A stretch of DNA of 64,000 nt. It comes from Aminicella lysinilytica (lineage in GTDB: Bacteria; Bacillota; Clostridia; Peptostreptococcales; Anaerovoracaceae). Shown here one piece after another: positions 10,690 to 45,468 of this stretch; within the stretch, counting starts at the first letter, position 1; every line of letters starts with the position of its first letter. Where the stretch lies: assembly GCF_004362975.1 (NCBI RefSeq), contig NZ_SNXO01000007.1, positions 1 through 64,000 of the forward strand. Direction: 5' to 3'. Both the position numbers and the translations under genes were made by a program. The notes below the pieces were generated by a model. It did not search any database. It was not told the origin of the DNA and saw only the letters and a program-made list of their open reading frames with translations.

Positions 10690-11510
10690 TTGCTCTAACC
10701 GCCATACTTTTCATACTCATATTCATAGTCTGCGGAGACAAAGGCACCAAGTCCATCATCTCAACAGTCATGAACGCCGTGCTGCTGCTTCTGGCGATTT
10801 TCCTCATATACAAGAATTTCAACCCTATGCTGGTCACCATTGCCTGCTGCGTCATGATTTCCGTGGTCACCCTCTTCTACCAGAACGAGGTCAACATCAA
10901 ATCCAAGGTGGCATTCCTGTCAGTACTGGTGGTCATCATCGTCGTGATACCTTTGATCTACTTCATGGCTTACGGCGCCAACGCGGCCGGGTTCAACCCT
11001 GAGGAATACGAGATCACAGACTCCAACGGTTACACCAGAAACATCGATGTCAGCATGCTGGCCCTGCAGATTTCCATCATGCTCATCGCCCTTATGGGGA
11101 CCATCATCGATACGGCCGTGGCCATAACATCGTCTATTTACGAGATACGATCAAATAATAAGGACCTGTCTCTGCAAGCCCTGATGAAATCATCATTCAA
11201 GGTCAGCAAAGCGGTCCTGAGTACTTCGATACATACGATATTCTATATTTACATTGCCGAGTACATGACTCTGCTCATTCAGTACATGACAGACTATTCC
11301 CTGTCGTACATTATCAACAGCCAGTCCTTTGCGCGAGAGCTCATATCAGTCTCCATCAGCGGCATCGGCTGCTGCCTAGTCGTGCCCGTGGCTACTGTTG
11401 CCGGCGCTGTACTGATCAGCCGCCAAGGCCAGATCAGAGTCAAAGGCGGTGTCAAGGCAAAACTCAAAGCCGGCGCCACGGTCAAATCCAAGAGCAAGCT
11501 CAGGCCTTGA
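10683..11510 (+). CDS. YibE/F-family membrane protein (second of pair)
   Basis: A 275-residue integral membrane protein with about seven to eight hydrophobic helices. Conserved features shared with its partner include the MGTIIDTAVAITSSIYEI motif, which aligns with DVVVTMVMTVDQITETG. The start overlaps the previous stop by seven bases, so the two are translationally coupled and probably form a complex. The C-terminus is strongly basic (VKGGVKAKLKAGATVKSKSK), likely cytoplasmic. The last 11 bp overlap the 3' end of convergent aroQ, and no intrinsic terminator fits between them. Confidence 0.8.
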   Translation: MLIALTAILFILIFIVCGDKGTKSIISTVMNAVLLLLAIFLIYKNFNPMLVTIACCVMISVVTLFYQNEVNIKSKVAFLSVLVVIIVVIPLIYFMAYGANAAGFNPEEYEITDSNGYTRNIDVSMLALQISIMLIALMGTIIDTAVAITSSIYEIRSNNKDLSLQALMKSSFKVSKAVLSTSIHTIFYIYIAEYMTLLIQYMTDYSLSYIINSQSFARELISVSISGIGCCLVVPVATVAGAVLISRQGQIRVKGGVKAKLKAGATVKSKSKLRP

Positions 11511-11925
11511 GCAATATCTTCATAGCCTCCACATAGCCTTGAAATCCCAGGCCCGACACTGTGTCTATGCAGGCCTCCCGCACAAAGGATACCCTGCGGA
11601 AGTCTTCCCGGCTGTCTACATGGGAAATGTGAACTTCTACGGCCGGCAGAGCTACTGCCTTCAGGGCATCGAGAATGGCTACGCTGGTGTGGGTGTATGC
11701 TGCAGGGTTAATGACGATGCCGTCGTAAACTCCGTAAGCCTGCTGAATGGCATCGACAATGTCACCCTCATGATTAGACTGGAAAAAGGCGGCCTCCACC
11801 TTTAACTGCGAAGCCGCCTTTTTAATATACTCTACCAGATCAGCATAGGTATCGCGGCCGTAAATATCAGGCTCTCTTATGCCCAGCATATTTATATTCG
11901 GTCCGTTGATAACTAAGATCCTCAT
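11500..11925 (-). CDS. aroQ: Type II 3-dehydroquinate dehydratase
   Basis: Shikimate pathway step 3: 3-dehydroquinate to 3-dehydroshikimate by the dodecameric type II enzyme. The 141-residue length is typical. Catalytic features are Tyr22 in the IYGRD lid region, the SNHEG segment, NPAAYTHTSVAI and EVHISH. It is the last gene of the aro operon; its start overlaps the aroEK stop by one base. The 3' end overlaps the convergent YibF-type gene by 11 bp. Assignment is secure. Confidence 0.96.
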   Translation of the reverse strand: MRILVINGPNINMLGIREPDIYGRDTYADLVEYIKKAASQLKVEAAFFQSNHEGDIVDAIQQAYGVYDGIVINPAAYTHTSVAILDALKAVALPAVEVHISHVDSREDFRRVSFVREACIDTVSGLGFQGYVEAMKILLKA

Positions 11926-13115
11926 TATTTCATCTCCTGATTATTATCTATGAAGAAGTCACTCCAATACTTATAAGCATCCTTGCGTTCCTCGTATAGT
12001 TTCTCCACTCCTGTAGAAGTAGAAAGAGGTCTGCCGTCTGTTACCAGTTTGTCCAGATCCCTCTTGATCCAGATTACCACGCCATTCTGCTTGATAATAT
12101 TGTAATTTACTTTTCTCTTGATTATACCGCCGCCTGTGGCGATGACAAGTCCGTTCCTGATGCAGGCCTTCTCCAGCATTTCGCTCTCGATGTTTCTGAA
12201 ATATGTCTCGCCCTTCTCATCGAATATCTTCTCTACAGACATTCCTTCGCTTTCCTCGATCATATCGTCCACATCCACGAAACCTCTACCCATACGTTCG
12301 GCCATCTTCTTGCCAAGCATAGTTTTCCCTGCTCCCGGCATACCTATCAGTATGGTATTCAGAGTCTCGCTTCTGACCTCATCGGTGACTATGTCTATAT
12401 CACCGTCATCTATCTTGATGCCCTGGAACAGTTCACTGGATTCCTTGGCCTGAGCCACCAGCATATCTATACCGCCGGCACATGGGATAGACCTGGCCAT
12501 AGCGTCCAGAATAAGTTTTGTTTTGTCCGGGTTGTATATGAGATCTACAACGCCTGCGCAATCATGAAAATCGTCCAGATTGACCAGGGTTTTACCGTTG
12601 TAGGGGAACATACCCACGGGCGTGGTGTTTACTATGATCTCCGCGTCGAAATGCTCCGATATGTTCTCATAATTGTCTTTGCCGGATCTGGAAATCACGG
12701 TCACGCTGGCCGCTTCTCTATCCGCAAGGACCGTACGCACTGTGTGAGAAGCACCGCCGCTTCCCAGAATTATGCACTTCTTCCCAGCCACATCTATCTT
12801 ATTATGTGTCAGCAGATATCTGAATCCGAAGTAGTCTGTGTTATAGCCTGTGATCTTGCCGTTCTCGTCTTTCAGAACGGTGTTGACACTCTGTATCTTC
12901 TTGCTGTCGTCTGAGAGTTCATCGCACAGGGCCATGACCTTCTCTTTATATGGTATAGTAATATTGAATCCGCTGTAATCTTCCGATCTCAGCAAGTCTT
13001 CCAGTCCCTCTTCATCGACCTCACAGATGTCATATTCATAGTTTCCGAATTTACTGTGGATCTGCTTAGAATAACTGTGTGAAAGGCTTCCCCCGATTAG
13101 TCCAAATCTACTCAT
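11925..13115 (-). CDS. aroE-aroK: Shikimate dehydrogenase-shikimate kinase fusion
   Basis: One polypeptide of 396 residues carrying two consecutive shikimate pathway steps. AroE occupies about 1-245: substrate motif GGSLSHSYSKQIH, catalytic Lys57 in NITIPYKE, Asp94 in YNTDYFG, and NADP loop GSGGAS (118-123). AroK occupies about 252-396: Walker A GMPGAGKT (258-265), the shikimate-binding DVDD/GGG region (TGGGII 328-332), and the lid GRPLS (361-365). Residues about 232-252 form an acidic linker. Start overlaps the upstream gene by eight bases, with GGAG upstream. Both active sites look intact. Fused versions are known in some Clostridia. Confidence 0.95.
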   Translation of the reverse strand: MSRFGLIGGSLSHSYSKQIHSKFGNYEYDICEVDEEGLEDLLRSEDYSGFNITIPYKEKVMALCDELSDDSKKIQSVNTVLKDENGKITGYNTDYFGFRYLLTHNKIDVAGKKCIILGSGGASHTVRTVLADREAASVTVISRSGKDNYENISEHFDAEIIVNTTPVGMFPYNGKTLVNLDDFHDCAGVVDLIYNPDKTKLILDAMARSIPCAGGIDMLVAQAKESSELFQGIKIDDGDIDIVTDEVRSETLNTILIGMPGAGKTMLGKKMAERMGRGFVDVDDMIEESEGMSVEKIFDEKGETYFRNIESEMLEKACIRNGLVIATGGGIIKRKVNYNIIKQNGVVIWIKRDLDKLVTDGRPLSTSTGVEKLYEERKDAYKYWSDFFIDNNQEMK

Positions 13116-13992
13116 TAGTCATCTCCATATAACTTCCTAAATAAACGTATTCCTGCTCTGCATGGCTTACCTGGCTTATCATGTTCCTGAAGGAATCGCT
13201 GTCAAATGGCGTTTCCACATCGAAACAGAACATCAGGTCCTCTTCATCGTCAGGCGCCGTCCAGCTTTTCATCTTGGAGACGTTCAGCCCCAGTGCATAG
13301 AATTTATCCAGAACTCCGTAGAGAGCTCCCGGCACGTCAGGTACTCTGAGCATCAGACATGTCCTGTCAGCGCCTCTGTAAATTTCCAGTTCCCTGCTGA
13401 TGCAGACAAACCTCATTCCACCGGCAGTTACCGTGCTGCGTACTATGTAGCAGTTATTCTCAGCCAGCATCTCGTATACTCTGTTACTGACATCTATATG
13501 CCTGCCTATAGTAATGACAGCATATTTGCACTGACCGCTTTCAACGGCAGCGAAGATGTCTTCCAGATCGTCAAAATACTGGATATGATCATCGTTTCCG
13601 AAGAACTTGACGCAGGCCTGCCTGCAGTATGGTTCCTGTTCTCCGTGGCACGCGATGGATTCATTATCAGGCGGCATGGCGGGAGTTTTCTCATAGGCTT
13701 CTTCAAGAACGCCCAGCATGTTGACTCCTCTTTGGATGACCCTGCGCTGATAATCTCTGCTCATCTCCATAATGTTATTATACAACATCCTGCAGTAAGT
13801 AGCCATATCTTCATCAGCCATTTTCGCTATTTCTTCAAGTTTGGCAGTTTCCCGAGCTTCATCCTTGATAGGCAGCTCGTTATCTTTCTTGTATGCCGCG
13901 ATCTCTCCTGACAGTTTCATTCTCTCCTGAAACAGCCTTACAATTTCGGCATCGACTCCGTCGATTTTCTTTCTTATATCCTTAATATCCAT
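13108..13992 (-). CDS. Chorismate mutase with degenerate prephenate dehydratase remnant and ACT domain
   Basis: Residues 1-88 are an AroQ-type chorismate mutase helix bundle with R7, R24, K35/K36 and an acidic segment near D44 in the expected places. Residues 113-187 align with the first lobe of prephenate dehydratase, but the sequence then jumps to a segment (MRFVCIS, 193-199) that in the neighbouring PDT follows about 95 residues later. The catalytic TRF region is therefore incomplete and the second lobe is missing. An ACT domain follows (about 208-294), but the Phe-binding ESRP motif of the paralogue is replaced by KSWT. Likely a chorismate mutase with altered regulation. The upstream gene is its paralogue. 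Confidence 0.85.
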   Translation of the reverse strand: MDIKDIRKKIDGVDAEIVRLFQERMKLSGEIAAYKKDNELPIKDEARETAKLEEIAKMADEDMATYCRMLYNNIMEMSRDYQRRVIQRGVNMLGVLEEAYEKTPAMPPDNESIACHGEQEPYCRQACVKFFGNDDHIQYFDDLEDIFAAVESGQCKYAVITIGRHIDVSNRVYEMLAENNCYIVRSTVTAGGMRFVCISRELEIYRGADRTCLMLRVPDVPGALYGVLDKFYALGLNVSKMKSWTAPDDEEDLMFCFDVETPFDSDSFRNMISQVSHAEQEYVYLGSYMEMTNE

Positions 13993-14008
13993 CTTCGCAC
14001 CTCTATCT

Positions 14009-15007
14009 CTATATTACTTCAATATAACTTCCCAGGTACTTGAAATCCCGACTCAGTTCATCGGTATGATTCATCATGCGAATGAACTTATCCGAGTAGA
14101 CATTAGCTTCCACATCGAAATAGAACATGAAATCGAAGTCCTTGTCGGGGATAGGCCTGCTCTCCAACTTGAACAAATTTATATCCAAAGCATAGAATCT
14201 GGCCAGTAGGTTGAATAGCGATCCCGGTTTGTGAGTCACGGTCATCATCATGCTGGTCTTGTCTGCACCCGGATATATCTCCATATCCTTGCTGATGCAG
14301 ATGAATCTGGTATAATTTCTGTTTCCATCCTGGACAGCCTCTTCAAGAATGTCCAGTCCGTAGATCTGCCCACATTCCCCTGAGGCCAGTGCCGCCACAT
14401 CATTCCGCTCTGAATCAGCTACCATTCTGGCCGCTTCGGCTGTATTCTCGCAGGCCGTTATCTTCGCCTCCGGAAACTGTCTGAGATAATCCTCGCACTG
14501 ACTTATAGCCTGCTCGTGAGAGAATATCTCACGGATATCCTTCCTATCTGTGCCTGCCTTGGCCAGAAGGCTGTGATCCACTCTCAACCTTACGCTGCGC
14601 ACGATGTAGAAATCGTACTTCATCATCAGGTCGTAGATCTTATTCACTGATCCTGCAGTGCTGTTCTCCAAAGGCAGGACGCCATAGTGGCAAAGTCCCT
14701 GATCCACTGCCGCGAATACGCCTTCAAAGTTCTTCATATACATTATCTGTGGATCTCTGAATAGCCTGTCGCAGGCCTGCTGCGCGTATGCTCCCGGCAC
14801 TCCCTGACAGGCTACCTGCGCCGTTTCCGGGAACACCTTAGGAGTTTCTTCTCTGGCTGCTTTTATCTTCTTCACCAGAGCCGTATCCTCCAGAGTGAAT
14901 TTACTCTCGTGATCCTTTTCCAACTCTACAATAGTATTATATAATAATCTGTTGTAAGATTCCATATCTTCATTAGCAAAAGTGGATTTATTGTTGATAT
15001 TTTTCAT
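14009..15007 (-). CDS. pheA: Prephenate dehydratase with ACT domain
   Basis: Converts prephenate to phenylpyruvate, the committed step to Phe. The complete dehydratase domain spans about 65-240 (GVPGAYAQQA, LPLENSTAGSV, catalytic NYTRFICIS at 231-239). The ACT domain spans about 248-332 with PGSLF (261-265) and ESRP (282-285), the Phe-binding motifs that confer feedback inhibition in this family. The N-terminal 35 residues (NEDMESYNRLLYNTIVELEK) resemble only the last helix of a chorismate mutase, as if the mutase had been lost from a once bifunctional P-protein. The downstream gene is the reciprocal case. AAGGTG precedes the ATG. Confidence 0.94.
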   Translation of the reverse strand: MKNINNKSTFANEDMESYNRLLYNTIVELEKDHESKFTLEDTALVKKIKAAREETPKVFPETAQVACQGVPGAYAQQACDRLFRDPQIMYMKNFEGVFAAVDQGLCHYGVLPLENSTAGSVNKIYDLMMKYDFYIVRSVRLRVDHSLLAKAGTDRKDIREIFSHEQAISQCEDYLRQFPEAKITACENTAEAARMVADSERNDVAALASGECGQIYGLDILEEAVQDGNRNYTRFICISKDMEIYPGADKTSMMMTVTHKPGSLFNLLARFYALDINLFKLESRPIPDKDFDFMFYFDVEANVYSDKFIRMMNHTDELSRDFKYLGSYIEVI

Positions 15008-15011
15008 ATTT

Positions 15012-15995
15012 TCACCTTATCATATCGTACAAAGCCATAGCGGCCGCTGCCTCCACGCAGGGCACAGCTCTCGGCACTATGCAGGGATCGTGCCTGCCTC
15101 CTACCTTGAGCTTCACATTTTCCTCCCGGGAGTAGCTTATGCTGCTTTGTTCTATAGCAATAGACGGCGTCGGCTTGACCGCCACCCTGAAAACAACCGG
15201 CATGCCGCTGGATATGCCACCCAGAATGCCTCCGTGGTTGTTGGTGCGGGTCCTGACCTTATGGTCATCGTAATAAAATTCATCGTTGTTCTCGCTGCCT
15301 CTGATGCGTGCCGCGTCGAAACCTCTGCCGAACTCGATTCCCTTGACGGCGGGGATACCGAAGACTGCTTTGGCCAGGACATTTTCCAGACCGTCGAACA
15401 TGGGCTCTCCTATGCCGGCGGGAAGCCCTGTAATGACGCACTCTATAATGCCGCCTACGGAGTCACCGTCCTTCATGGCCTCATCGACTGCCGCAAAAGG
15501 ATCGTTGCTGTTGCCGCCGATTTCCAGAATGCGCGCGTCTATGGTGATGCCTTCCTTTGCCAGTATCTGCTTGAAGATACCTCCTGCTATGCAAAGGGGC
15601 GCTGTCAGTCTGCCGGAAAAATGTCCGCCGCCGCGGTAGTCGTTGGCATCGCCGTATTTCACATGAGCCGCGTAGTCCGCATGGCCGGGTCTCGGCGTAT
15701 CTTTCATGTCATCGTAATCTGCCGATCTGGTGTTTTCATTTCTGATCATGGCCGTTACCGGCGTGCCGCATGTCATACCGTCCCTGATACCACAAAGGAA
15801 TTCCGGCCTGTCGGCCTCTTTCCTTGGCGTGGCGTATTTGCTCCGTCCCGGGGCGCGGCGTTCCATAAATACCTGCAATTCTTCCATATCGATACTGATT
15901 CCCGCAGGCAATCCGTCTATAGTAACGCCGATGGCCTCAGAGTGTGACTCACCGAAAATCGCTACCTTGATTTTATCTCCATAGATCGATGACAT
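15012..15995 (-). CDS. aroC: Chorismate synthase
   Basis: Final shikimate pathway enzyme; makes chorismate from EPSP using reduced FMN as a catalytic cofactor. Signature motifs are GESHSEAIGVTIDGLPAG at the N-terminus, RPGHADY, RGGGHFSGR, and GGRHDPCIVPRAVP near the C-terminus. At 327 residues it is shorter than many homologues (about 350-390) but no signature is missing. Start codon is preceded by GGAGG at seven bases. Tightly packed between aroA (4-bp gap) and pheA (4-bp gap) in the operon. Confidence 0.96.
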   Translation of the reverse strand: MSSIYGDKIKVAIFGESHSEAIGVTIDGLPAGISIDMEELQVFMERRAPGRSKYATPRKEADRPEFLCGIRDGMTCGTPVTAMIRNENTRSADYDDMKDTPRPGHADYAAHVKYGDANDYRGGGHFSGRLTAPLCIAGGIFKQILAKEGITIDARILEIGGNSNDPFAAVDEAMKDGDSVGGIIECVITGLPAGIGEPMFDGLENVLAKAVFGIPAVKGIEFGRGFDAARIRGSENNDEFYYDDHKVRTRTNNHGGILGGISSGMPVVFRVAVKPTPSIAIEQSSISYSREENVKLKVGGRHDPCIVPRAVPCVEAAAAMALYDMIR

Positions 15996-15999
15996 TTCT

Positions 16000-17166
16000 C
16001 TACCTCCATTTTTCCAGTTCTTTAAAAAAGCCCGGATATGATTTATTGACGGCTTCTCTGCCGTTGATTTCTACTTTATTTCTGCTGACCAGGGATGCTA
16101 CGGCCACCATCATTACGATACGATGATCTCCGAAGGAATCCACTGTGCCACCGTCCACCTGCACTCCGTCACTGCCTTTTATGATAAGGCCTTCAGGCTC
16201 TTCTATTACCCTGGCTCCGAGACTGTTGAGAGTATCGCTGATAGCTGTCAGCCTGTCGCTTTCCTTGAGTCTCAGTCTGCCTGCGTTGATTATATGTGTC
16301 TGTCCTTCTGCCATAGACGCAGCCAGAGCTATAGCCGGCGTCAGATCCGGTATGCCGGATACGTCTATCTCAGTTCCTGAAAGTTCAGACGGATACGCAG
16401 TAACGGCGCTATCTGTAGCTCCTATCTCGCAGCCCAGACTCCCCAGGACTTCAACTATCCTCATATCTCCCTGACGGGAATCTATGTTAAGGCCTCTGAC
16501 TCTGACTGGTTCACTGCCGATGGCTCCTGCCACCAGCCAGTTGGCCGCAGCCGACCAGTCTCCTTCTACTGTATATATTATCGGTCCTCTGAATTTCTGA
16601 CCACCCTTCACGAGAAAAGTGTTTTCATCAGCTGCTATGCGGATGCCGAAGCTCTTCAGCACATCTAAAGTAATATCCACATAGGCGGCCGATTCCAGAT
16701 GGCCTTCTATAACTACCCTGCTGTCCTCCGCCAGATTCGGCAGTGCCAGCAATAGTCCTGTTATGAACTGTGATGACACGTTGCCCGGCAGATGAAATAT
16801 TCCTCCCGTCAGCTGGCCCTCTATGGTCAGTCTGCCCAGATCGTCCTTGCCAACGGCGCAGCCGTGAGACGCCAGCTGGTCTATGAGAGGCCCCATAGGC
16901 CGTTCCGCCAGCCTGCCCTTTGTTACAAAGGTACCTTTGCACCCCAGCGCGCCTATGACCGGCAACATGAAGCGCAATGTCGAGCCGCTTTCGCCGCAGT
17001 CCATGACTGTCTCTCCGGACTTCATGGCCCTGACGCACTCCCGGGTAGCTCTGATATCCTCGGAAGCCAGGGGACACACGACCTCAGTTGGCGTCTCCGA
17101 CAGAGCCGCGCAGATGAGCGCCCGGTGGGCATATGATTTAGATGGGATAATGTCGATATTTATCAC
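16000..17166 (-). CDS. aroA: EPSP synthase (3-phosphoshikimate 1-carboxyvinyltransferase)
   Basis: Transfers enolpyruvyl from PEP to shikimate 3-phosphate. Motifs are PSKSYAHRALI (substrate Lys/Ser), GESGSTLRFMLP, SSQFITGLL, the catalytic DLTPAIA aspartate, RLKESDRL and FGDHRIVM. I use the GTG at 17166, seven bases after GGAG, giving 388 residues. It starts just after the tyrA stop (TAAAAGTG). Longer in-frame starts (17199 ATG, 17364) run into tyrA and add no conserved sequence. The FMLP-containing loop resembles forms outside the E. coli type, which could influence inhibitor binding, but that is not testable here. Confidence 0.94.
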   Translation of the reverse strand: MINIDIIPSKSYAHRALICAALSETPTEVVCPLASEDIRATRECVRAMKSGETVMDCGESGSTLRFMLPVIGALGCKGTFVTKGRLAERPMGPLIDQLASHGCAVGKDDLGRLTIEGQLTGGIFHLPGNVSSQFITGLLLALPNLAEDSRVVIEGHLESAAYVDITLDVLKSFGIRIAADENTFLVKGGQKFRGPIIYTVEGDWSAAANWLVAGAIGSEPVRVRGLNIDSRQGDMRIVEVLGSLGCEIGATDSAVTAYPSELSGTEIDVSGIPDLTPAIALAASMAEGQTHIINAGRLRLKESDRLTAISDTLNSLGARVIEEPEGLIIKGSDGVQVDGGTVDSFGDHRIVMMVAVASLVSRNKVEINGREAVNKSYPGFFKELEKWR

Positions 17167-17168
17167 TT

Positions 17169-18032
17169 TTATTCTCCGTTTATCTGCTGTGGACCGCATT
17201 TCTTCAAAACAGCCGTCTTGCAGGCTTTGCCCTCGGCCAGAAGCTTCATGAGCCGGTCTGGATCGGCCGCCTCCAGGGCTTCTTCGTATCTGGTAAGCTG
17301 GCCTATGAGGCCTCTGATCTCCTCTGACAGAAAGTCGCGGTTTTCCATAAAAAGCTGCGTCCACATCTTCTCGTCCAGGTAAGCTACGCGGGTGAAATCC
17401 TGGTAGCTGCCCGCCGATATCATCTGGCTGTCGTCCAGGGCCGTCTCGGATTTGATGAAGCCGTTTGAAATTATGTGGGGCATCTGGGACGTGAAGGCGA
17501 TGACCTTATCGTGCTCCTCAGATGTGGTGATGCCGATCCTGCCAAAGCCTGCCAGCATGATCATTTCTTTGACCCGGCACATGAGCTCCATGTCGTCGTG
17601 ATGCTTTGGCACCAGTATGAAGGGCGCGTTCCAGAACAGGCCTGCGCTGCTGTGTTTGAAGCCGCCGCGCTCTTTTCCGGCCATGGGATGTCCGCCCATG
17701 TATGTGAGGCCGTACTGGTCTGCTATGTCGAAGCAGGCCCTGCACACAGTCCTCTTGGTGCCGCAGCAGTCTATGACGATGGTGTCCTTGCCGATCTGCG
17801 GCGCATTCTCTCTAAACCATTTTACCGCTTCTACGGGGTTGATTGCAACTAAAATCAGGTCGCAATCCTTCATATTATTATCATCCAGCCTCTCATCGAT
17901 AGCCTCGGCCATGAGAGCGAACCGGGTGATCAGGTCGTCCTTATCTATGCCGAAGACCGTCACATCGGCGTCCTTGTACGCTTTGGCCAGTGACCCTCCT
18001 ATGAGCCCCAGCCCGACTATTCCTACCTTCAT
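17169..18032 (-). CDS. tyrA: Prephenate dehydrogenase
   Basis: Oxidatively decarboxylates prephenate to 4-hydroxyphenylpyruvate for Tyr synthesis. The 287-residue protein has the Rossmann motif GIVGLGLIGGSLAK at the N-terminus, GGHPMAGKERGGF and SQMPHIIS in the catalytic region, and an all-helical dimerisation domain. There is no C-terminal ACT domain, so direct Tyr feedback through ACT is not expected. Its ATG shares one base with the DAHP synthase stop (TAATG), so translation is coupled. Regulation probably comes from the attenuator at the head of the operon. Confidence 0.95.
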   Translation of the reverse strand: MKVGIVGLGLIGGSLAKAYKDADVTVFGIDKDDLITRFALMAEAIDERLDDNNMKDCDLILVAINPVEAVKWFRENAPQIGKDTIVIDCCGTKRTVCRACFDIADQYGLTYMGGHPMAGKERGGFKHSSAGLFWNAPFILVPKHHDDMELMCRVKEMIMLAGFGRIGITTSEEHDKVIAFTSQMPHIISNGFIKSETALDDSQMISAGSYQDFTRVAYLDEKMWTQLFMENRDFLSEEIRGLIGQLTRYEEALEAADPDRLMKLLAEGKACKTAVLKKCGPQQINGE

Positions 18033-19030
18033 TATATCACCTCTCTGATCTTTCTGACTTTATCCATCATCGCCTTGAACTGGTCAGGCGTCAGGGACTG
18101 GGCCCCGTCGCACAAAGCCTTTGCCGGATCGTTATGTACTTCTATCATGAGTCCGTCGGCTCCCCCGGCTGTAGCCGCCAGTGCCATAGGCGCCACCAGA
18201 TCCGCGTGGCCCGTTGCGTGGCTCGGGTCTACGACCACAGGCAGATGGGTCAGCTGGTGGAGCACGGGGATAACGGACAGGTCCAGGGTATTCCTAGTGT
18301 AAGTCTCAAAGGTACGTATGCCTCGCTCGCACAAAATTATATTTTCGTTGCCGCCGGACATTATGTACTCGGCGCTCATGAGTAACTCCTTGATGGTGTT
18401 GGCCAGGCCCCTCTTCAAAAGTATTGCTTTATTGGTATGGCCCAGCTCCTTCAGAAGTTCGAAGTTCTGCATGTTCCTGGCTCCCACCTGTATCACGTCT
18501 ACATCTTCGAAAAGCGGAAGATGATCTGCGTTCATTATTTCTGTTACTATCGGTAGCCCCGTGGCTTCCTTAGCCTCCAGCAGCAGTTTCAATCCTTCAT
18601 CTTTCAGCCCCTGAAAATCGTAAGGTGAAGTCCTTGGCTTGAAAGCGCCGCCTCTGAGCATAGTGGCTCCGGCTGCTTTGACTTGCTTGGCAACTTCTAT
18701 TATCTGTTCCTCGGACTCGACTGAACATGGTCCGGCTATGACTGCGAATTCTCCTCCGCCGATCTTAGCGTTTTCCACTTGAATAACGGAATCCTCAGGA
18801 TGGAATTTCCTGTTGGCCTTCTTGAAGGGTTCCGATATCATGGCTACTCTCTCGACATTTTCCAGCATCTCCAGCATTTCCACATCTATGCCCGATGTGT
18901 CTCCAATGAGTCCGAGCACCGTCTGATTCTCATCCTCGTACTCGTGTACTCTCAGACCCTGGTCCTCAAACCATTTGATGAGCATCTGCTTCTGTGCTTC
19001 CGTCGTGCCCGCCTTTAAAATACAAATCAT
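18032..19030 (-). CDS. aroF: DAHP synthase, type I-beta, with N-terminal regulatory domain
   Basis: First enzyme of the shikimate pathway, condensing PEP and erythrose 4-phosphate. Residues 1 to about 75 form the ferredoxin-like regulatory domain seen in B-type DAHP synthases. The TIM barrel follows with GPCSVES, LRGGAFKPRTSPYDFQG, VGARNMQNFELL, LLKRG, CERGIRTFE and DPSHATGH. Start 19030 has GGAGG eight bases upstream; an in-frame start at 19087 lacks this. It is the first gene of the aro operon and lies behind the leader peptide attenuator. A second copy without the regulatory domain is at 19421-20179. Confidence 0.95.
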   Translation of the reverse strand: MICILKAGTTEAQKQMLIKWFEDQGLRVHEYEDENQTVLGLIGDTSGIDVEMLEMLENVERVAMISEPFKKANRKFHPEDSVIQVENAKIGGGEFAVIAGPCSVESEEQIIEVAKQVKAAGATMLRGGAFKPRTSPYDFQGLKDEGLKLLLEAKEATGLPIVTEIMNADHLPLFEDVDVIQVGARNMQNFELLKELGHTNKAILLKRGLANTIKELLMSAEYIMSGGNENIILCERGIRTFETYTRNTLDLSVIPVLHQLTHLPVVVDPSHATGHADLVAPMALAATAGGADGLMIEVHNDPAKALCDGAQSLTPDQFKAMMDKVRKIREVI

Positions 19031-19105: not shown

Positions 19106-19136
19106 TAAAAAAAAACCCCACAGCGTCAGCTGTGAG
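19106..19136 (-). terminator. Attenuator terminator of the aro operon
   Basis: Stem CACAGC / GCTGTG (19119-19134) with a 4-nt loop, followed on the minus strand by about ten T residues (19106-19115). It lies upstream of the first structural gene, so it must be read through for operon expression. Confidence 0.9.
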
Positions 19137-19140
19137 AATC

Positions 19141-19253
19141 AAGTAATCATTTTCCTATTCTGTCATTACTTAAACTTTTTCATACAGCAAAACGCTTTTT
19201 CTCATTGTTAAAGAAAAAGTAGTAATAATAGTATGCTGCTGATGCGTTTAAGT
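19141..19253 (-). promoter_or_regulatory. Competing RNA pairings of the aro leader
   Basis: Segment 1 (ACTTAAAC, 19246-19253, inside the leader ORF) is perfectly complementary to segment 2 (GTTTAAGT, 19168-19175, just after the leader stop). Segment 2 also overlaps AAGTAAT (19165-19171), which pairs with ATTACTT (19141-19147) next to the terminator. A ribosome stalled on the Tyr/Phe codons would cover segment 1 and free segment 2. How far 2:3 pairing disturbs the terminator needs a fold calculation. Confidence 0.65.
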
Positions 19254-19260
19254 TTCTCAT
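19180..19260 (-). CDS. Tyr/Phe leader peptide of the aro operon
   Basis: A 26-residue ORF: M-R-N-L-N-A-S-A-A, then five consecutive Tyr codons, three consecutive Phe codons, then N-N-E-K-K-R-F-A-V and TGA. A weak AAAGG lies about ten bases upstream. Eight adjacent codons for the two end products of the operon, followed by competing hairpins and a terminator with a T-run, is the classical layout of ribosome-mediated transcription attenuation. The peptide itself is probably not functional. It is too short for most gene finders. Confidence 0.85.
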   Translation of the reverse strand: MRNLNASAAYYYYYFFFNNEKKRFAV

Positions 19261-19330
19261 TAGTACATTGCCTTTCTGCAAATTTCCAACCGGCCGCCCG
19301 TCTCACCGGCGCCGCTCCTCGAATAAACCT

Positions 19331-19359
19331 ACTGTAACATATATCTTGTGGCAAATCAA
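19331..19359 (-). promoter_or_regulatory. Promoter of the aro operon
   Basis: Minus-strand -35 TTGATT (19354-19359) and -10 TACAGT (19331-19336), 17-bp spacer. Transcription would begin around 19324 and cover the leader ORF, giving a leader of about 290 nt before the DAHP synthase start. Confidence 0.6.
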
Positions 19360-19420: not shown

Positions 19421-20179
19421 CTACACAGCCGCCCTGACTCGCCTTACCTTTGCTACTATCTCAGTAAACTTGTCAGGCGTCACTGCCTGCTGACCGTCGC
19501 TGAGGGCCCTGGCCGGATCGCTGTGGACTTCTATCATCAGCCCATCGGCGCCGCAAGCCGCCGCTGCCAGAGCCATAGGCTCCACTAGGTACGAATGACC
19601 TGTGCCGTGGCTTGGATCTACGATCACCGGAAGTTCCGTCATGTGCTTGAGAACAGGCACCGCAGCCAGATCCAATGTGTTTCGGGTCTCAGTTTCAAAG
19701 GTTCTGATTCCCCGTTCGCAGAGAATTATATTATCATTGCCGCCGGCCAGAATATACTCGGCGCTGCTGAGAAGTTCGCGGAGGGTGTTAGCCATGCCGC
19801 GCTTGAGCAGGATTGTCTTCCGTGTATTTCCCAACTCCGTCAAAAGTTCGAAATTCTGCATATTTCTGGCTCCAACCTGGATCACATCTACATCATCGTA
19901 AAGAGGAAGATGCTCTACGCCGGTGATCTCAGTCACTACAGGGAGACCTGTCTTCTTCTTTGCCTCAAGGAGCCACTCCATTCCCTCTTCCTTTTTGCCC
20001 TGAAAATCGTAGGGTGAAGTACGCGGCTTGAAAGCGCCGCCCCTGAGCATATCCGCTCCGCCGGCCTTTACCTTCTCCGCAATGTCTGCGATCTGTGTTT
20101 CTGATTCTACAGAACAGGGGCCGCCTATTATTATGAAATTACCCTGGCCGCATTTGACGCCGCCGGCATTTACTATCAT
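19421..20179 (-). CDS. DAHP synthase catalytic domain only (second copy)
   Basis: A 252-residue protein that is clearly a paralogue of the 18032-19030 gene (shared GPCSVES, LRGGAFKPRTSPYDFQGK, VGARNMQNFELL, LLKRGMANT, CERGIRTFET, DPSHGTGHS). It lacks the N-terminal ferredoxin-like domain, so it is expected to be insensitive to allosteric control through that domain. It has its own promoter (20261-20288) and lies upstream of the attenuator, so it escapes the Tyr/Phe leader. GGAG is eight bases before the ATG. Both copies look catalytically intact. KDO8P synthase is the alternative for this fold, but the near-identity to the neighbouring copy favours DAHP synthase. Confidence 0.9.
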   Translation of the reverse strand: MIVNAGGVKCGQGNFIIIGGPCSVESETQIADIAEKVKAGGADMLRGGAFKPRTSPYDFQGKKEEGMEWLLEAKKKTGLPVVTEITGVEHLPLYDDVDVIQVGARNMQNFELLTELGNTRKTILLKRGMANTLRELLSSAEYILAGGNDNIILCERGIRTFETETRNTLDLAAVPVLKHMTELPVIVDPSHGTGHSYLVEPMALAAAACGADGLMIEVHSDPARALSDGQQAVTPDKFTEIVAKVRRVRAAV

Positions 20180-22381: not shown

Positions 22382-22663
22382 ATGACACACTTTGAACCAG
22401 AAGTTGAGAGGAATATTGTTAAGCAGCATATTCAAGATGGACGCACTTATGAAAGCCTGGCTAACGAATATGGCTGTTCGAGATATGTAATTGGCAGGGT
22501 GGTAAGCAATTATCTAAAAGATGCAAGGCAGCATGAACTGGAAACCAAGCAAATAGCCGATATGGAAACTATGAATCGACTTCAGAAAGAAAATGATGAT
22601 CTGAAGAAGGAGAATGACTTCCTAAAAAAAGCGGCGGCATTCTTCGCGAAGGAAAGCAAATAA
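22382..22663 (+). CDS. IS3-family transposase OrfA
   Basis: A 93-residue protein with an N-terminal helix-turn-helix (about 10-50, DGRTYESLANEYGCSRYVIG) and a leucine-zipper-like coiled coil (about 60-85). OrfA binds the element ends. GGAG lies just upstream. Near its end the A7-G tract permits a -1 frameshift to produce the fused OrfAB transposase. The reading frame is intact. Confidence 0.9.
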   Translation: MTHFEPEVERNIVKQHIQDGRTYESLANEYGCSRYVIGRVVSNYLKDARQHELETKQIADMETMNRLQKENDDLKKENDFLKKAAAFFAKESK

Positions 22664-23517
22664 CCAAATACAGGTTTATCGATAAGTATTCTAAGCGCTA
22701 CGGAGTAAACTGGCTCTTAAAACATTTGAAGGTTTATCCAAATGCTTATTACAACTACAAGAAGCACCGCAAGAATGCCCAACAAAAATCCAAAGCTTCT
22801 ATACTGAAAGTCATTGAGAAACAATACCATGATGCCGAAGGAGTACCAGGCTATCGTATGATGAGGACACTGTTAGCAAACAACGAAAAAATCGATCTAA
22901 GCGTACAAACTGTGCGTAAATACATGAATGTGGAACTTGGATTGAAGTCAGTTACGAGAAAGCCCAAATATGTCTATTGCAAGGGATCTGAGGCCTATGA
23001 GATCGCAGAGAATATCATAAATCGTGAGTTTACTGCCGAAGCCAGAAACACTAAATGGTGTGTTGATTTCACATACTTGTTTTTAGCCAATCACAGCAAA
23101 CGATACAACTGTACGATCATAGATCTATACGACCGCAGAGTCGTTGCCAGCGTAAACGGTAAACACATCGATGCTCAGCTCGCAATCGATACACTCACAA
23201 AAGCAATTGAACGTTGCGATGGAAAAACCGGAATGATCCTTCATAGTGACCGTGGCAGTCAGTTTACATCAAAAGACTTCACGGAATTCTGTAAAAAGCT
23301 TGGAGTTACACAGAGTATGAGTCGACCTGGTTGTCCATACGACAATGCACCAATGGAGCGTTATTACAATACTCTAAAAGCCGAGCTGATCAACCTGAGA
23401 ACATTCTCTACTGAGGAGTTGCTCTATCAGAAAGTCAATGCTTATGCATATGGATGGTACAACTACAAGAGACCACATTCATTTAACAATGGTTTACCAC
23501 CAGCTAAAGTCGCATAA
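22624..23517 (+). CDS. IS3-family transposase OrfB (DDE integrase), by -1 frameshift
   Basis: The -1 frame is open from the A7-G slippery site through 23517. The residues before the first possible start (TTG 22726) already match OrfB N-termini (KYRFIDKYSKRYGVNWLLKH), so synthesis by frameshifting as OrfAB is the natural reading. The catalytic triad is visible: D in KWCVDFTYL, D in HSDRGSQFTS and E in NAPMERYYNTLKAE. An HTH_21-like segment precedes the rve core. Intact, so the element may be mobile. Confidence 0.9.
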   Translation, partial: KKSGGILREGKQITKYRFIDKYSKRYGVNWLLKHLKVYPNAYYNYKKHRKNAQQKSKASILKVIEKQYHDAEGVPGYRMMRTLLANNEKIDLSVQTVRKYMNVELGLKSVTRKPKYVYCKGSEAYEIAENIINREFTAEARNTKWCVDFTYLFLANHSKRYNCTIIDLYDRRVVASVNGKHIDAQLAIDTLTKAIERCDGKTGMILHSDRGSQFTSKDFTEFCKKLGVTQSMSRPGCPYDNAPMERYYNTLKAELINLRTFSTEELLYQKVNAYAYGWYNYKRPHSFNNGLPPAKVA

Positions 23518-42143: not shown

Positions 42144-43073
42144 CTACTCGCACTTAGCCTGCAGCTTCTCCCACTGCTCGTCTACATACTGCTGAGCCTC
42201 TTCAAGCATCCACTCATTTCCCTTCTTGAACATGTGGGCAAAGCGGCCCTGCATCTTCAGAAACTCAGCAACAGGCGCCTTGCGGCGAGGTTCATAATTC
42301 AAATGCCACTGGCCGTCCTCTATCTCATAAAGAGGCCAGACACAGGTTTCCACGGCCAGATTACAGATCTCCGCCAGATCCTCCATATCATAACGCCAGC
42401 CGCGTGGACACGGCGCCAGCACATTGAGGAAACACGGACCCTCAGTATATATCGCTTTGTGGGCCTTGGTATGAAGATCCTTGAAATCCCCGATCATAGT
42501 AGTCTGTGCCGCATACGGAACATTGTGAGCTGCGATGATAGAAGTAAGATCCTTTTTGTTCTGGACCTTTCCATAACTCTGAGTTCCCACAGGCGTCGTC
42601 GTTGCGTCAGCGAAGCGAGGCGTCGCCGATGACCTCTGGATGCCCGTATTCATGTATGCCTCGTTATCATAGCACACATATACCATATCGTGACCGCGCT
42701 CCATAGCCCCGGACAAAGACTGAAGACCTATATCATAAGTCCCGCCGTCGCCGCCGAAACAGATAAATTTGAAATCATCCTTTATCTTGCCGCGCTTTTT
42801 CAGGACACGGTAAGCCGTCTCCACGCCGCCTGTCGTTGCCGCGGCATTCTCGAAAGCACTGTGGATATAACTGTCCTCATAAGCCGTATTCGGATATATG
42901 AAAGTCGAAACCTCCAGACAACTGGTAGCATTGGTAACTACCGCTTTGTCGCCTTCATCCACTGCGCGCAGCACGCCCTGAACAGCCGCACCCGCGCCGC
43001 AGCCTGCGCAGAGCCTGTGACCCGGCGCCAGACGGTTCTTTTTGTTCAATTCTTCTCTTAGACTGTATCCCAT
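42144..43073 (-). CDS. porB: 2-oxoacid:ferredoxin oxidoreductase, beta (TPP) subunit
   Basis: 309 residues. Binds thiamine diphosphate via GGDGGTYDIGLQSLSGAMER ... NEAYMNTGIQRS, and has the CAGCGAG motif (C22, C25) with later cysteines for a 4Fe-4S cluster. Forms the active site with porA. Last gene of porCDAB. Annotated as pyruvate oxidoreductase by similarity, but the Ile-type T-box upstream suggests 2-oxobutyrate or a branched 2-oxoacid as the physiological substrate. Confidence 0.9.
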   Translation of the reverse strand: MGYSLREELNKKNRLAPGHRLCAGCGAGAAVQGVLRAVDEGDKAVVTNATSCLEVSTFIYPNTAYEDSYIHSAFENAAATTGGVETAYRVLKKRGKIKDDFKFICFGGDGGTYDIGLQSLSGAMERGHDMVYVCYDNEAYMNTGIQRSSATPRFADATTTPVGTQSYGKVQNKKDLTSIIAAHNVPYAAQTTMIGDFKDLHTKAHKAIYTEGPCFLNVLAPCPRGWRYDMEDLAEICNLAVETCVWPLYEIEDGQWHLNYEPRRKAPVAEFLKMQGRFAHMFKKGNEWMLEEAQQYVDEQWEKLQAKCE

Positions 43074-43078
43074 ACCTC

Positions 43079-44257
43079 TTATGCCTCTCTTACTCCTATA
43101 TGCCTGTAGCCGTCGCCGGTGTCGCCGGTGGCCGCAACCTCCTGCAGATCCTCGAAGACCTCGTCGAAGGTCTCGATGGTGACATCTCTGCCGCCGAGTC
43201 CGTAAACGTAATTCATCATGTAAGGCCTGTCCTCAGCTTCGTAAAGGGCCGACCTGGTCTCCGCAAACAGGGGCCCACCCTGGCCTGAGAAACTCTCCGC
43301 CTTATCCATTACCGCGACAGCCTTTGTGCCTGCCAGGGCTATTGCCAGCTCTTCTGCCGGAAATGGCCTGAAAACCCTGACCTTGATCAGACCTGCTGCC
43401 ATACCGTCTGCCCGGAGCATGTCCACGGCAGCCTTGCCGGTGCCTGCCGACGAGCCGATGAGGACAACTGCGTACGCCGCGTCATCCATGCGATACTCCT
43501 CCAGCATGCCATAACCACGGCCCGACATTTGTCCGAAAGCCTCGCCTACTTCTTTAATGCGTGCCGGGGCCGACTTCATAGCCTCGGCCTGGGCTTTCTT
43601 TATCTCCATGTAATATGGAGACACGCCGTAAGGGCCTACGGAGTATATTTCTTCCTCGTTCAAAAGGTAATGCTCCGGGTCGTACTCGCCGACAAAATCT
43701 TTCACGCTGGCGTCGTCGAGAAGTTCGATGTTTTCCACGGCGTGGCTGGTGATGAAGCCGTCCTGGCATATCATGATTGGAAGTCTGCAGTGCTCGGCTA
43801 TGGGCATAGCCTGGATATAATTGTCGTAGACCTCCTGATTGTTTTCCGCATAGATCTGTATCCACCCGGCGTCACGGCATCCCATGGAGTCGGAGTGATC
43901 ATTGTTGATGTTGATCGGGCCCGTCAGAGCTCTGTTTACTACTGCCATGACTACCGGAAGCCTGCTGGATGAAGCTACGTATAGAAGTTCATACATGTAA
44001 GCAAGTCCCGCAGATGATGTAGCCGTAATAGCTCTGGCCCCTGCCGCCTCTGCACCTATGCAGGTTGACATGGCCGAATGCTCTGATTCCACAGCGACAA
44101 ATTCCGTGTGGACCTTACCATCGGCAATGTACTTGGCGAAGTACTGGGGGATCTCCGTAGACGGCGTTATAGGGAAAGCGCCCATAACGTCGGGATCTAT
44201 CTGCTTCATAGCATAGGCAACCGCCTCGTTGCCGCTCATTCTGTCTTTCTTTGCCAT
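43079..44257 (-). CDS. porA: 2-oxoacid:ferredoxin oxidoreductase, alpha subunit
   Basis: 392 residues with the transketolase-type pyrimidine-binding domain (GNEAVAYAMKQIDPDVMGAF, ITPSTEIPQYFA, FVAVESEHSAMS, INNDHSDSMGCRDAGWIQIY) and the C-terminal domain II (VRVFRPFPAEEL, VMDKAESFSGQGGPL). Works with porB, porC and porD as the four-subunit form found in anaerobic bacteria and archaea. Five-base gap to porB and directly adjacent to porD. Confidence 0.92.
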   Translation of the reverse strand: MAKKDRMSGNEAVAYAMKQIDPDVMGAFPITPSTEIPQYFAKYIADGKVHTEFVAVESEHSAMSTCIGAEAAGARAITATSSAGLAYMYELLYVASSSRLPVVMAVVNRALTGPININNDHSDSMGCRDAGWIQIYAENNQEVYDNYIQAMPIAEHCRLPIMICQDGFITSHAVENIELLDDASVKDFVGEYDPEHYLLNEEEIYSVGPYGVSPYYMEIKKAQAEAMKSAPARIKEVGEAFGQMSGRGYGMLEEYRMDDAAYAVVLIGSSAGTGKAAVDMLRADGMAAGLIKVRVFRPFPAEELAIALAGTKAVAVMDKAESFSGQGGPLFAETRSALYEAEDRPYMMNYVYGLGGRDVTIETFDEVFEDLQEVAATGDTGDGYRHIGVREA

Positions 44258-44560: not shown

Positions 44561-45148
44561 TTATCCTACCTTTACCTGATCCATTGACATCCTGAGTGCC
44601 TTCATATTTCCGTCGATAACGTAAGGCTTGGATGCGAATTTATGCTTGAACGAACTCTCCATATCATGGAGGAATTTATGATTTTCAACTACGTTGCTTA
44701 CCTTGACAGCGGCTGCCAGCATTGGAGTGTTAGGGAAATTCTTCCCGAGAGTCTCAACGGATATTTTCTCGGCGTCTACAGTACAGACCTTGCCCTTATA
44801 TCCGCCCAGTAGTTCTCTGACCTCAGCCGGCTCCCTGGTGCTGTTAACGATTATGGCGCCGTCCTCTGAAAGGCCCGAGGTCACATCCACTGTGTGGAGC
44901 AGCGTCTCATCGACTACAACCACGTAGTCCGGGTGATATATGTTGGAATGGACCGAATTCTTATCATCGGATATTCTGTTATATGCTGTTATAGGGGCCC
45001 CCATTCTCTCAGGACCATATTCAGGAAATCCCTGAACCTGCTTCCCCGAGCTGAAGGCTACATCCGCCAGAAGGAGGCATGCCGTCTTGGCACCCTGTCC
45101 GCCTCTGCCGTGCCATCTGATCTCAACTGTATTTCCCTGCTTTTTCAT
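44561..45148 (-). CDS. porC: 2-oxoacid:ferredoxin oxidoreductase, gamma subunit
   Basis: 195 residues from ATG 45148 (GGGAG eight bases upstream; an in-frame start at 45190 is unsupported). Motifs are IRWHGRGGQGAKTA and EYGPERMGAPITAYNRIS, typical of gamma subunits. First gene of porCDAB and directly downstream of the T-box leader. The binding partner is porA/B. Confidence 0.92.
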   Translation of the reverse strand: MKKQGNTVEIRWHGRGGQGAKTACLLLADVAFSSGKQVQGFPEYGPERMGAPITAYNRISDDKNSVHSNIYHPDYVVVVDETLLHTVDVTSGLSEDGAIIVNSTREPAEVRELLGGYKGKVCTVDAEKISVETLGKNFPNTPMLAAAVKVSNVVENHKFLHDMESSFKHKFASKPYVIDGNMKALRMSMDQVKVG

Positions 45149-45196
45149 TTCATTATCTCCCTTTTCATCTGAAACCAATTGGACATACACTTCGAT

Positions 45197-45230
45197 AAAA
45201 AAAATCTCCGCCCTGCATCAGGACGAAGAT
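45197..45230 (-). terminator. T-box terminator
   Basis: 11-bp arms (45204-45214 and 45220-45230, allowing G-U pairs), 5-nt loop, eight T on the minus strand. It is mutually exclusive with the antiterminator containing AGCAGGTGG. Confidence 0.88.
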
Positions 45231-45440
45231 CAAATAATCATCGTTATAAACCACCTGCTACTCTTGCATACTATCATATGCTCTTCCGATAACGGGGAAG
45301 GCCCGTCAGAACTTACTGGCTATGCTTTCGGTTCTGCGACTCAGGAGTGATTTTCAAAACACGCTTTTCTCGGTATCGGGCTCTCACCATCCCCGATTCG
45401 CTTGACCTTATAGCGTATATCTACTGTCTCCGTCAATGTC
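45197..45440 (-). ncRNA. T-box leader, predicted isoleucine (AUC) specifier
   Basis: Minus-strand order: GACGGAGACAGTAGATAT (5' stem I with AGTA), the distal-loop motif GGGGATGGTGAGAGCCC, the specifier strand GAAAATCACTCCTGAGT, then AGTAAGTTCTGACGGG, the antiterminator box AGCAGGTGG followed by TTTATAACG, and the terminator. By alignment with the glyQS pattern GAAA-GGC-A..CTTGAG, the specifier codon is ATC (Ile). The TGGT in the box would pair with an ACCA 3' end, as tRNA-Ile has. Controls porCDAB. Confidence 0.85.
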
Positions 45441-45468
45441 TTTGGTTTCTTATTTAATTGATACTGCT

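Follow-up and report, generated by a model that had tools for sequence, protein, structure and literature searches.

The window (the whole 64,000-nucleotide stretch of DNA analysed here) lies on contig C7 of the Aminicella lysinilytica genome, which is 2.29 Mb in size and 99.7% complete. On the minus strand it carries, in order, a DAHP synthase paralogue, a promoter-like site, a Shine-Dalgarno (SD) sequence, a short leader ORF, a terminator, a second DAHP synthase gene and a set of aro genes. The features are listed from 5' to 3', with the RNA stretches that can pair with one another numbered as segments 1 to 4:

19331..19359 (-): promoter-like site, predicted from its consensus match only; TTGATT (19359-19354), a 17-nt spacer and TACAGT (19336-19331).
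19271..19277 (-): SD-like AGAAAGG, 10 nt 5' of the leader ATG.
19180..19260 (-): leader ORF, 26 codons, ATG start at 19260 and TGA stop; predicted translation MRNLNASAAYYYYYFFFNNEKKRFAV.
19246..19253 (-): outer part of pairing 1:2, ACUUAAAC; exact complement of 19175-19168, with which it also pairs in the minimum free energy (MFE) fold.
19234..19242 (-): segment 1 core; in MFE folds GCAGCA (19239-19234) pairs with UGCUGU (19189-19184) and UCA (19242-19240) with UGA (19182-19180).
19210..19233 (-): regulatory codons, five Tyr (19233-19219, TAC TAT TAT TAC TAC), then three Phe (19218-19210, TTT TTC TTT).
19184..19192 (-): segment 2 core, UUUUGCUGU, with alternative partners in segment 1 and segment 3; it extends to the leader stop codon.
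19165..19175 (-): segment 2 extension, GUUUAAGUAAU; partner either 19253-19246 (1:2) or 19147-19139 (2:3), both exact complements used in the folds.
19139..19147 (-): segment 3 extension, AUUACUUGA, paired in the antiterminator MFE.
19129..19137 (-): segment 3 and 5' arm of the terminator, UCUCACAGC; ACAGC (19133-19129) pairs with GCUGU (19188-19184).
19107..19124 (-): segment 4 and 3' arm of the terminator, GCUGUGGGG (19124-19116) and nine U (19115-19107).
18032..19030 (-): gene of a DAHP synthase that includes the N-terminal domain, the first to follow the attenuator; GGGAGG precedes its likely start, the ATG at 19030.
11500..18032 (-): downstream aro genes, namely prephenate dehydrogenase, aroA, aroC, prephenate dehydratase, a chorismate mutase-ACT-like gene, an aroE-aroK fusion and aroQ.

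A leader ORF of 26 codons with five Tyr codons followed by three Phe codons had been described in the first-pass annotation, and this is exact (19260-19180, -); at the sequence level the ORF has both a start codon and an SD. The terminator (19137-19107) is made up of TCTCACAGC (19137-19129), a TGAC loop, GCTGTGGGG (19124-19116) and a tail in which nine T can be counted (19115-19107) rather than the ten previously given, and it stands between the leader ORF and the first gene, as is expected of the intrinsic terminator of an attenuator. The first gene had already been named as a DAHP synthase, an identity borne out by TIGR01361 and NF006421, both above cut-off for 18032..19030 (the NF006421 match starts at residue 20 of the longer ORF); several of its nearest named relatives are from Emergencia (Anaerovoracaceae, Clostridia according to NCBI). 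The matches for prephenate dehydrogenase, prephenate dehydratase, chorismate mutase and aroE/aroK fall below curated cut-offs. As the operon includes both prephenate dehydrogenase and prephenate dehydratase, the Tyr/Phe codon run fits its end products.

The other DAHP synthase of the window (19421-20179, -), directly upstream, is without the N-terminal domain and without a recognisable leader; a leader hit at this gene (L023) was a TTG-started ORF and was judged false. Within the operon, 13108-13992 (-) and 14009-15007 (-) encode a chorismate mutase fused to a prephenate dehydratase C-terminal-like region (the full dehydratase being absent) beside a prephenate dehydratase; the arrangement resembles a CM-PDT duplication with partial loss. 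Elsewhere in the window, two adjoining ORFs (22382-23517, +) resemble, by eye, an IS3-type transposase pair, and 45216-45445 (-) is a T-box-like leader scoring 70 bits against a family cut-off of 93. The genes behind the latter (44561-45190, 43079-44257 and 42144-43073) are by eye like subunits of a 2-oxoacid:ferredoxin oxidoreductase, which looks like an unusual T-box target.

Folding of the leader, put forward in the first pass as a check, gave the three classical states, with the terminator formed when the RNA is free, the antiterminator when a ribosome is stalled and the terminator again when the ribosome is at the stop codon (the leading edge of the ribosome being assumed 12-13 nt ahead of the A site). 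The 158-nt leader folds with z = -3.3, and the MFE of the free, whole leader combines 1:2 with the terminator, 1:2 consisting of an inner part (GCAGCA:UGCUGU) and an outer part, the exact 8-bp complement of 19253-19246 (ACTTAAAC) with 19175-19168 (GTTTAAGT). For RNA from 19206 on, as left free by a ribosome close to the first Phe codon, the MFE (-21.9 kcal/mol, z -3.1) is that of the antiterminator, despite the presence of the complete terminator stem; its helices are GCUGU (19188-19184) with ACAGC (19133-19129) and UUAAGUAAU (19173-19165) with the segment 3 extension (19147-19139). It is also the MFE before the 3' arm of the terminator exists, with a z of -1.4 that is not unusual compared to shuffles. 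With RNA from 19168 on, as for a ribosome at the stop codon, the terminator remains. The window's 1:2 duplex (-23.5 vs -14.0 shuffled) was matched by none of 60 shuffles and its 2:3 duplex (-8.4 vs -5.1 shuffled) by two of 60.

Two pairings had been named earlier as mutually exclusive, 19253-19246 with 19175-19168 (8 bp) and 19171-19165 with 19147-19141 (7 bp, AAGTAAT with ATTACTT). Both are exact and their helices extend 1:2 and 2:3, but alone they do not exclude the terminator, because 19147-19141 lies outside the terminator stem, and the decisive GCUGU:ACAGC core had been missed. The helix 19171-19165:19147-19141 was therefore rejected as the whole antiterminator, having no overlap with the terminator stem; it forms part of the larger 2:3. 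With that core, the leader has an antiterminator that excludes the terminator and an upstream pairing, 1:2, that competes with it, the latter on the evidence of folding and shuffles, with covariation not supporting it.

Within a sample of the genus, a recognisable leader was found before the DAHP synthase in 14 of 17 genomes (own genome included), and a leader ORF was absent at this gene in the remaining three (G008, G009 and G007). In G007 two contigs each hold part of the DAHP synthase, and no leader ORF accompanies the part that includes the 5' end. The loci of G008 (L020) and G007 (L024) have the GCAGC/GCTGC terminator of the family before the DAHP synthase with the Tyr/Phe ORF absent, and in L024 a longer gene ends immediately 5' of TTTTGCTGC; both are possibly relics of a lost leader.

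The wider comparison drew on DAHP synthase loci from the contigs of named genomes together with those of the genus, and comprised 85 distinct leaders, including that of the window, after L023 (at the own first DAHP synthase) and L041 had been removed as false from an initial 87. A tally of 89/95 was set aside; it excluded loci with less than 200 nt upstream and L098 (N's), and it held certain genomes twice over (e.g. L009/L026) as well as the false L023 and L041. One leader (L081) is from a Synergistaceae record. The start codon is ATG in 83 of the 85 (found with a script that prefers ATG), an SD-like match of at least 4 nt, a loose criterion, is present in 75/85, and sites similar to TTGA...TGTTA stand, by eye, before the leaders of several relatives. 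The orthologous leaders do carry the Tyr/Phe runs on which the first-pass reading depended, with at least two Tyr and at least two Phe codons in 82/85, and Trp in one. The run spans of the 85 leaders (935 codons) contain 366 TAY, 343 TTY, no TTR and one TGG; with 343 TTY against 0 TTR, it is the amino acid, and not T-richness, that appears to be constrained. After the run, TTTTGCTG(C/T) is conserved in genus-type leaders and a TGCTGC-like stretch more widely, this segment 2 motif being present in 74/85 leaders and absent from 11.

These leaders bear on the possibility that the nascent peptide arrests the ribosome on free tyrosine or phenylalanine, in the manner of TnaC, rather than the codons sensing tRNA starvation. 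Some leaders do share motifs outside the run, such as AAEYY, or GYxFSAGYLFCKK-like ends in the second sub-type described below, but these shared residues coincide with the pairing segments (GCAGC, TTTTGCTGC and AATGAG), and the leaders differ widely in how many Tyr and Phe they have and in how these are ordered and spaced (e.g. YYYYYFFF, YFYFYF and YYYYFYY). Arrest on excess would, moreover, have the wrong sign for a biosynthetic operon, and we regard peptide arrest as very unlikely.

Covariation was examined in an alignment of 25 of the 85 leaders (A1), and the shuffle counts that follow are not probabilities, because the aligned sequences are related. For 1:2, 89.3% of cells pair (the row of the window being 3 nt off register), and its core showed no covariation beyond shuffles in this alignment, the score being reached by 121/500. 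For 2:3, 96.8% of cells pair, and the score together with the number of doubly changed cells was reached by 0/500 shuffles; two of its five pairs are doubly changed, a number reached by 62/500. For 3:4, 89.8% pair, seven of ten pairs are doubly changed (2/500 shuffles) and the score was reached by 0/500. A further alignment (A3) covered 63 of the 74 leaders with the segment 2 motif, the 11 omitted being mostly near-duplicates. Here, five of the seven pairs in the helix between the codon run and the RNA behind it are doubly changed in at least one sequence, some of which may be artefacts as the genus-type rows are about two columns out of register. The cleanest doubly changed pair (columns 53-87; UA 38, AU 9) involves the base that decides between Tyr and Phe, the middle one of the codon.

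In silico, the 5' arm of the terminator pairs with upstream RNA at a mean over the 85 leaders of 0.47 when free, 0.70 when stalled and 0.42 with the ribosome at the stop codon. The stalled value exceeds the free one in 78/85, the stop codon value in 61/85 and both in 58/85, 28 of which show a margin of more than 0.2 over either, and the gain in the window is modest (0.56, 0.77, 0.56). The 24 leaders without a gain relative to the ribosome at the stop are mostly short, with a stop codon well before segment 2. Pairing 1:2 falls from 0.51 to 0.24 on shuffling of the 5' part, the real sequence beating all 15 shuffles in 53/85 leaders; in the window it was equalled by one of 15. In many single leaders the 2:3 duplex does not outdo shuffles of the arm (e.g. 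L025 23/60, L061 44/60).

Each of the 85 leaders is followed by a T-tailed hairpin, a few of these hairpins scoring low. This argues against the same leader acting mainly through translation or through Rho, with no termination at the hairpin, as does the aligned set, in which segment 2 pairs with the hairpin's 5' arm; even though coupling is loose in some Firmicutes, with runaway transcription in B. subtilis (PMC7858274, PMC9226507), we see next to no likelihood in such control.

With its ORF and codon runs, its three alternative and conserved helices, two of them covarying, and its association with DAHP synthase, the locus is very probably a ribosome-mediated transcription attenuator tuned to Tyr and Phe together, placed before an aro operon. 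The proposal of Tyr/Phe leader attenuation at this operon is accordingly well supported by sequence, folding and comparison; stalling, ribosome-polymerase coupling, the efficiency of termination and the response to Tyr and Phe are what we infer from these. RNA polymerase would transcribe the leader and a ribosome would initiate on the 26-codon ORF. When charged tRNA-Tyr and tRNA-Phe are both ample, the ribosome would reach the stop codon and cover segment 2, the 3:4 terminator would form and transcription would stop at about 19107. If either charged tRNA is scarce, the ribosome would stall on the five Tyr or three Phe codons and cover segment 1; segment 2 would be left to form 2:3 with the terminator's 5' arm, allowing read-through into DAHP synthase, tyrA, aroA, aroC, pheA and the remaining aro genes. 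If the leader is not translated, both 1:2 and the terminator would form.

The distribution of the leader was assessed in an even sample of the class Clostridia, in which 110 of 147 genomes match the DAHP synthase of the window. The upstream regions surveyed are those of 147 genes from 104 genomes among the matches listed, weaker matches lying outside them; the gene of the window, that of G009 and the own paralogue (the last two without a leader) were left out. Under a strict rule (ATG start, at least six Tyr/Phe in 12 codons, at most 70 codons and a T-tailed hairpin), 54/147 upstream regions have a leader, one each in 54 genomes, against 3/147 for the antisense control and 1/1176 for dinucleotide shuffles. 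A looser rule gives 57/147, with 90/147 failing. A second sub-type with unchanged logic accounts for 11 of the 57 (L146, L150, L156, L157, L161-L163, L165, L173, L177 and L188), in which segments 2 and 3 are ATGAG (leader) and CTCAT (terminator) and the peptide often has a GYxFSxGY..CKK-like end. Only 13/57 class leaders have a perfect complement between the RNA behind the run and the terminator that outdoes 95% of shuffles.

A covariance model (R1) was also searched against whole genomes, with strict filters and 15 candidates scored per genome. It matched 20/291 class genomes once each (own genome included), in all 20 cases upstream of DAHP synthase. In the phylum it matched 4/398, the own genome plus three that do not belong to the class; here too DAHP synthase lay downstream every time, and the three have a leader and a terminator. 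In the own genome the copy in the window alone was significant (next E 1.55). The RNAalifold consensus underlying R1 is weak (7 pairs, -1.6 kcal/mol), and as its matches were far fewer than those of the ORF survey it was used only for where matches lie. R1 was trained on DAHP synthase leaders, and some matches share species or even leaders (e.g. L069 and G018) with the training set, so that it tests the association with the gene and does not test the family independently.

These counts bear in turn on the suggestion that the hairpin is merely the intrinsic terminator of the upstream DAHP synthase paralogue, which ends at 19421, and that the Tyr/Phe ORF arose by chance in a T-rich, unregulated stretch. 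The leader does lie between two genes, and six-codon Tyr/Phe runs in the own genome (18 overlapping matches) are about as frequent as a reversed control pattern (22), on which ground a long Tyr/Phe run was rejected as evidence standing alone. A chance origin is, however, at odds with the 54/147 regions compared to 1/1176 shuffles, with the lack of TTR codons in the run spans and with the covariation, and most relatives in the genus, for which one DAHP synthase match each was found (in one genome broken into two pieces), retain both leader and terminator (14/17, own genome included), which makes this explanation exceedingly improbable.

It had been stated in the first pass that such operons in Clostridia are more usually under T-box control and that leaders of this type are uncommon there. 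The survey does not bear this out, the leader being found in 54 (strict) or 57 (looser) of 147 regions and a T-box core, recognised by regular expression, in 24/147. The Rfam gathering score was reached by 16 of 20 of these T-box loci that were checked, and by none of 20 checked among the 66 loci with neither mark. Nowhere among the 147 regions do leader and T-box occur together, be it at one gene or in one genome; two loci counted as T-box (L212 and L237) also have a weak GTG-started Tyr/Phe ORF, which fails the stricter rules. The presence of T-boxes before these other DAHP synthase genes, and the own genome's five T-box matches, none of which reaches the family cut-off, are what could suggest a T-box or another Tyr/Phe metabolite riboswitch in place of a translated leader. 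On the other hand, none of the 57 leader-bearing regions has a T-box core by regular expression, neither the window nor 20 relatives gave a match to Rfam 15 at gathering, and codon content is the most constrained feature, so we attach hardly any probability to a riboswitch here.

A Tyr/Phe leader before DAHP synthase therefore looks common rather than rare, being present in about half of the class genomes examined (54/104). On balance we lean towards Tyr/Phe leader-peptide attenuation being the commonest recognisable control of DAHP synthase in the class Clostridia. It would then comprise at least two RNA sub-types, extend to Synergistaceae and to other classes of the phylum, and alternate with the T-box instead of standing as an exception to T-box control. 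A proteobacterial-style leader, apparently sensing Tyr and Phe at once, stands before DAHP synthase in these 54 genomes, and leader and T-box offer an example, class-wide and easy to score, of two RNA mechanisms taking each other's place. The leader is also an annotation target without a match in Rfam 15, and whether transcription and translation are coupled in Clostridia can be tested on it directly. Should the mechanism be as drawn, ribosomes in these anaerobes would have to trail the polymerase closely, in contrast to the runaway transcription reported from B. subtilis. The distance from stop codon to terminator, less than 12 nt in 10/47 cases in the own genome and in 6/16 in E. coli stretches, was set aside as a small and crude measure of coupling.

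Among known systems, the Phe leader attenuators of gammaproteobacteria are found at pheA and pheST. The corresponding family (Phe_leader, RF01859) aligned end to end over 19249-19105 with 21 bits and an E of 0.3, short of the gathering cut-off of 55. It resembles the window leader in having an ORF rich in Phe codons, the 1:2, 2:3 and 3:4 logic and an end-product gene downstream; the window leader differs in having Tyr codons too, in its predicted control of DAHP synthase and a whole aro operon, and in occurring in Clostridia. The T-box (RF00230) also senses tRNA charging and also stands before clostridial DAHP synthase genes. It has no leader ORF, unlike the leader of the window, and gave no gathering match in the window and none among the matches of the leader region at E up to 10.

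No Tyr/Phe attenuator of a clostridial aro operon was recognised among the literature matches listed, in a search outside of which most subscription papers fall. The closest candidates are short ORFs upstream of genes of the pathway. The uORFC-13-1 motif lies upstream of aroF and is described from Acholeplasma and environmental sequences only (24 representatives with at least one Phe); it shares with the window leader a uORF with Phe, a terminator and a DAHP synthase gene, and differs, compared by description only, in that no Tyr run is mentioned in the accessible part of the source (PMC8632094). In 2019, a screen of five genomes, including Clostridium novyi and Thermovirga lienii, gave two candidate F/Y uORFs at shikimate genes (Fig. 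6b legend of PMC6429828). These are likewise short Phe/Tyr ORFs at such genes, as far as the legend and text describe them, and differ in that the available text gives neither a mechanism nor a distribution (PMC6429828). Eight uORF candidates were reported from 50 further genomes, with ilvB and fthC among those named and tyrosine and phenylalanine absent from the portion of text available (PMC11109978). Histidine leader peptides in Firmicutes, at hisS/hisZ of bacilli (PMC2965389) and his operons of C. difficile and others (PMC9413887), use leader-peptide attenuation as in the window, but for histidine and, in these partly available accounts, in few lineages. A recurrent pattern has been described in which a T-box in Firmicutes corresponds to a leader peptide in Proteobacteria (PMC2965389, in the part available). 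Set against these systems, the probable regulator of the window is of a known kind, a classical leader-peptide attenuator, with an unexpectedly wide distribution.
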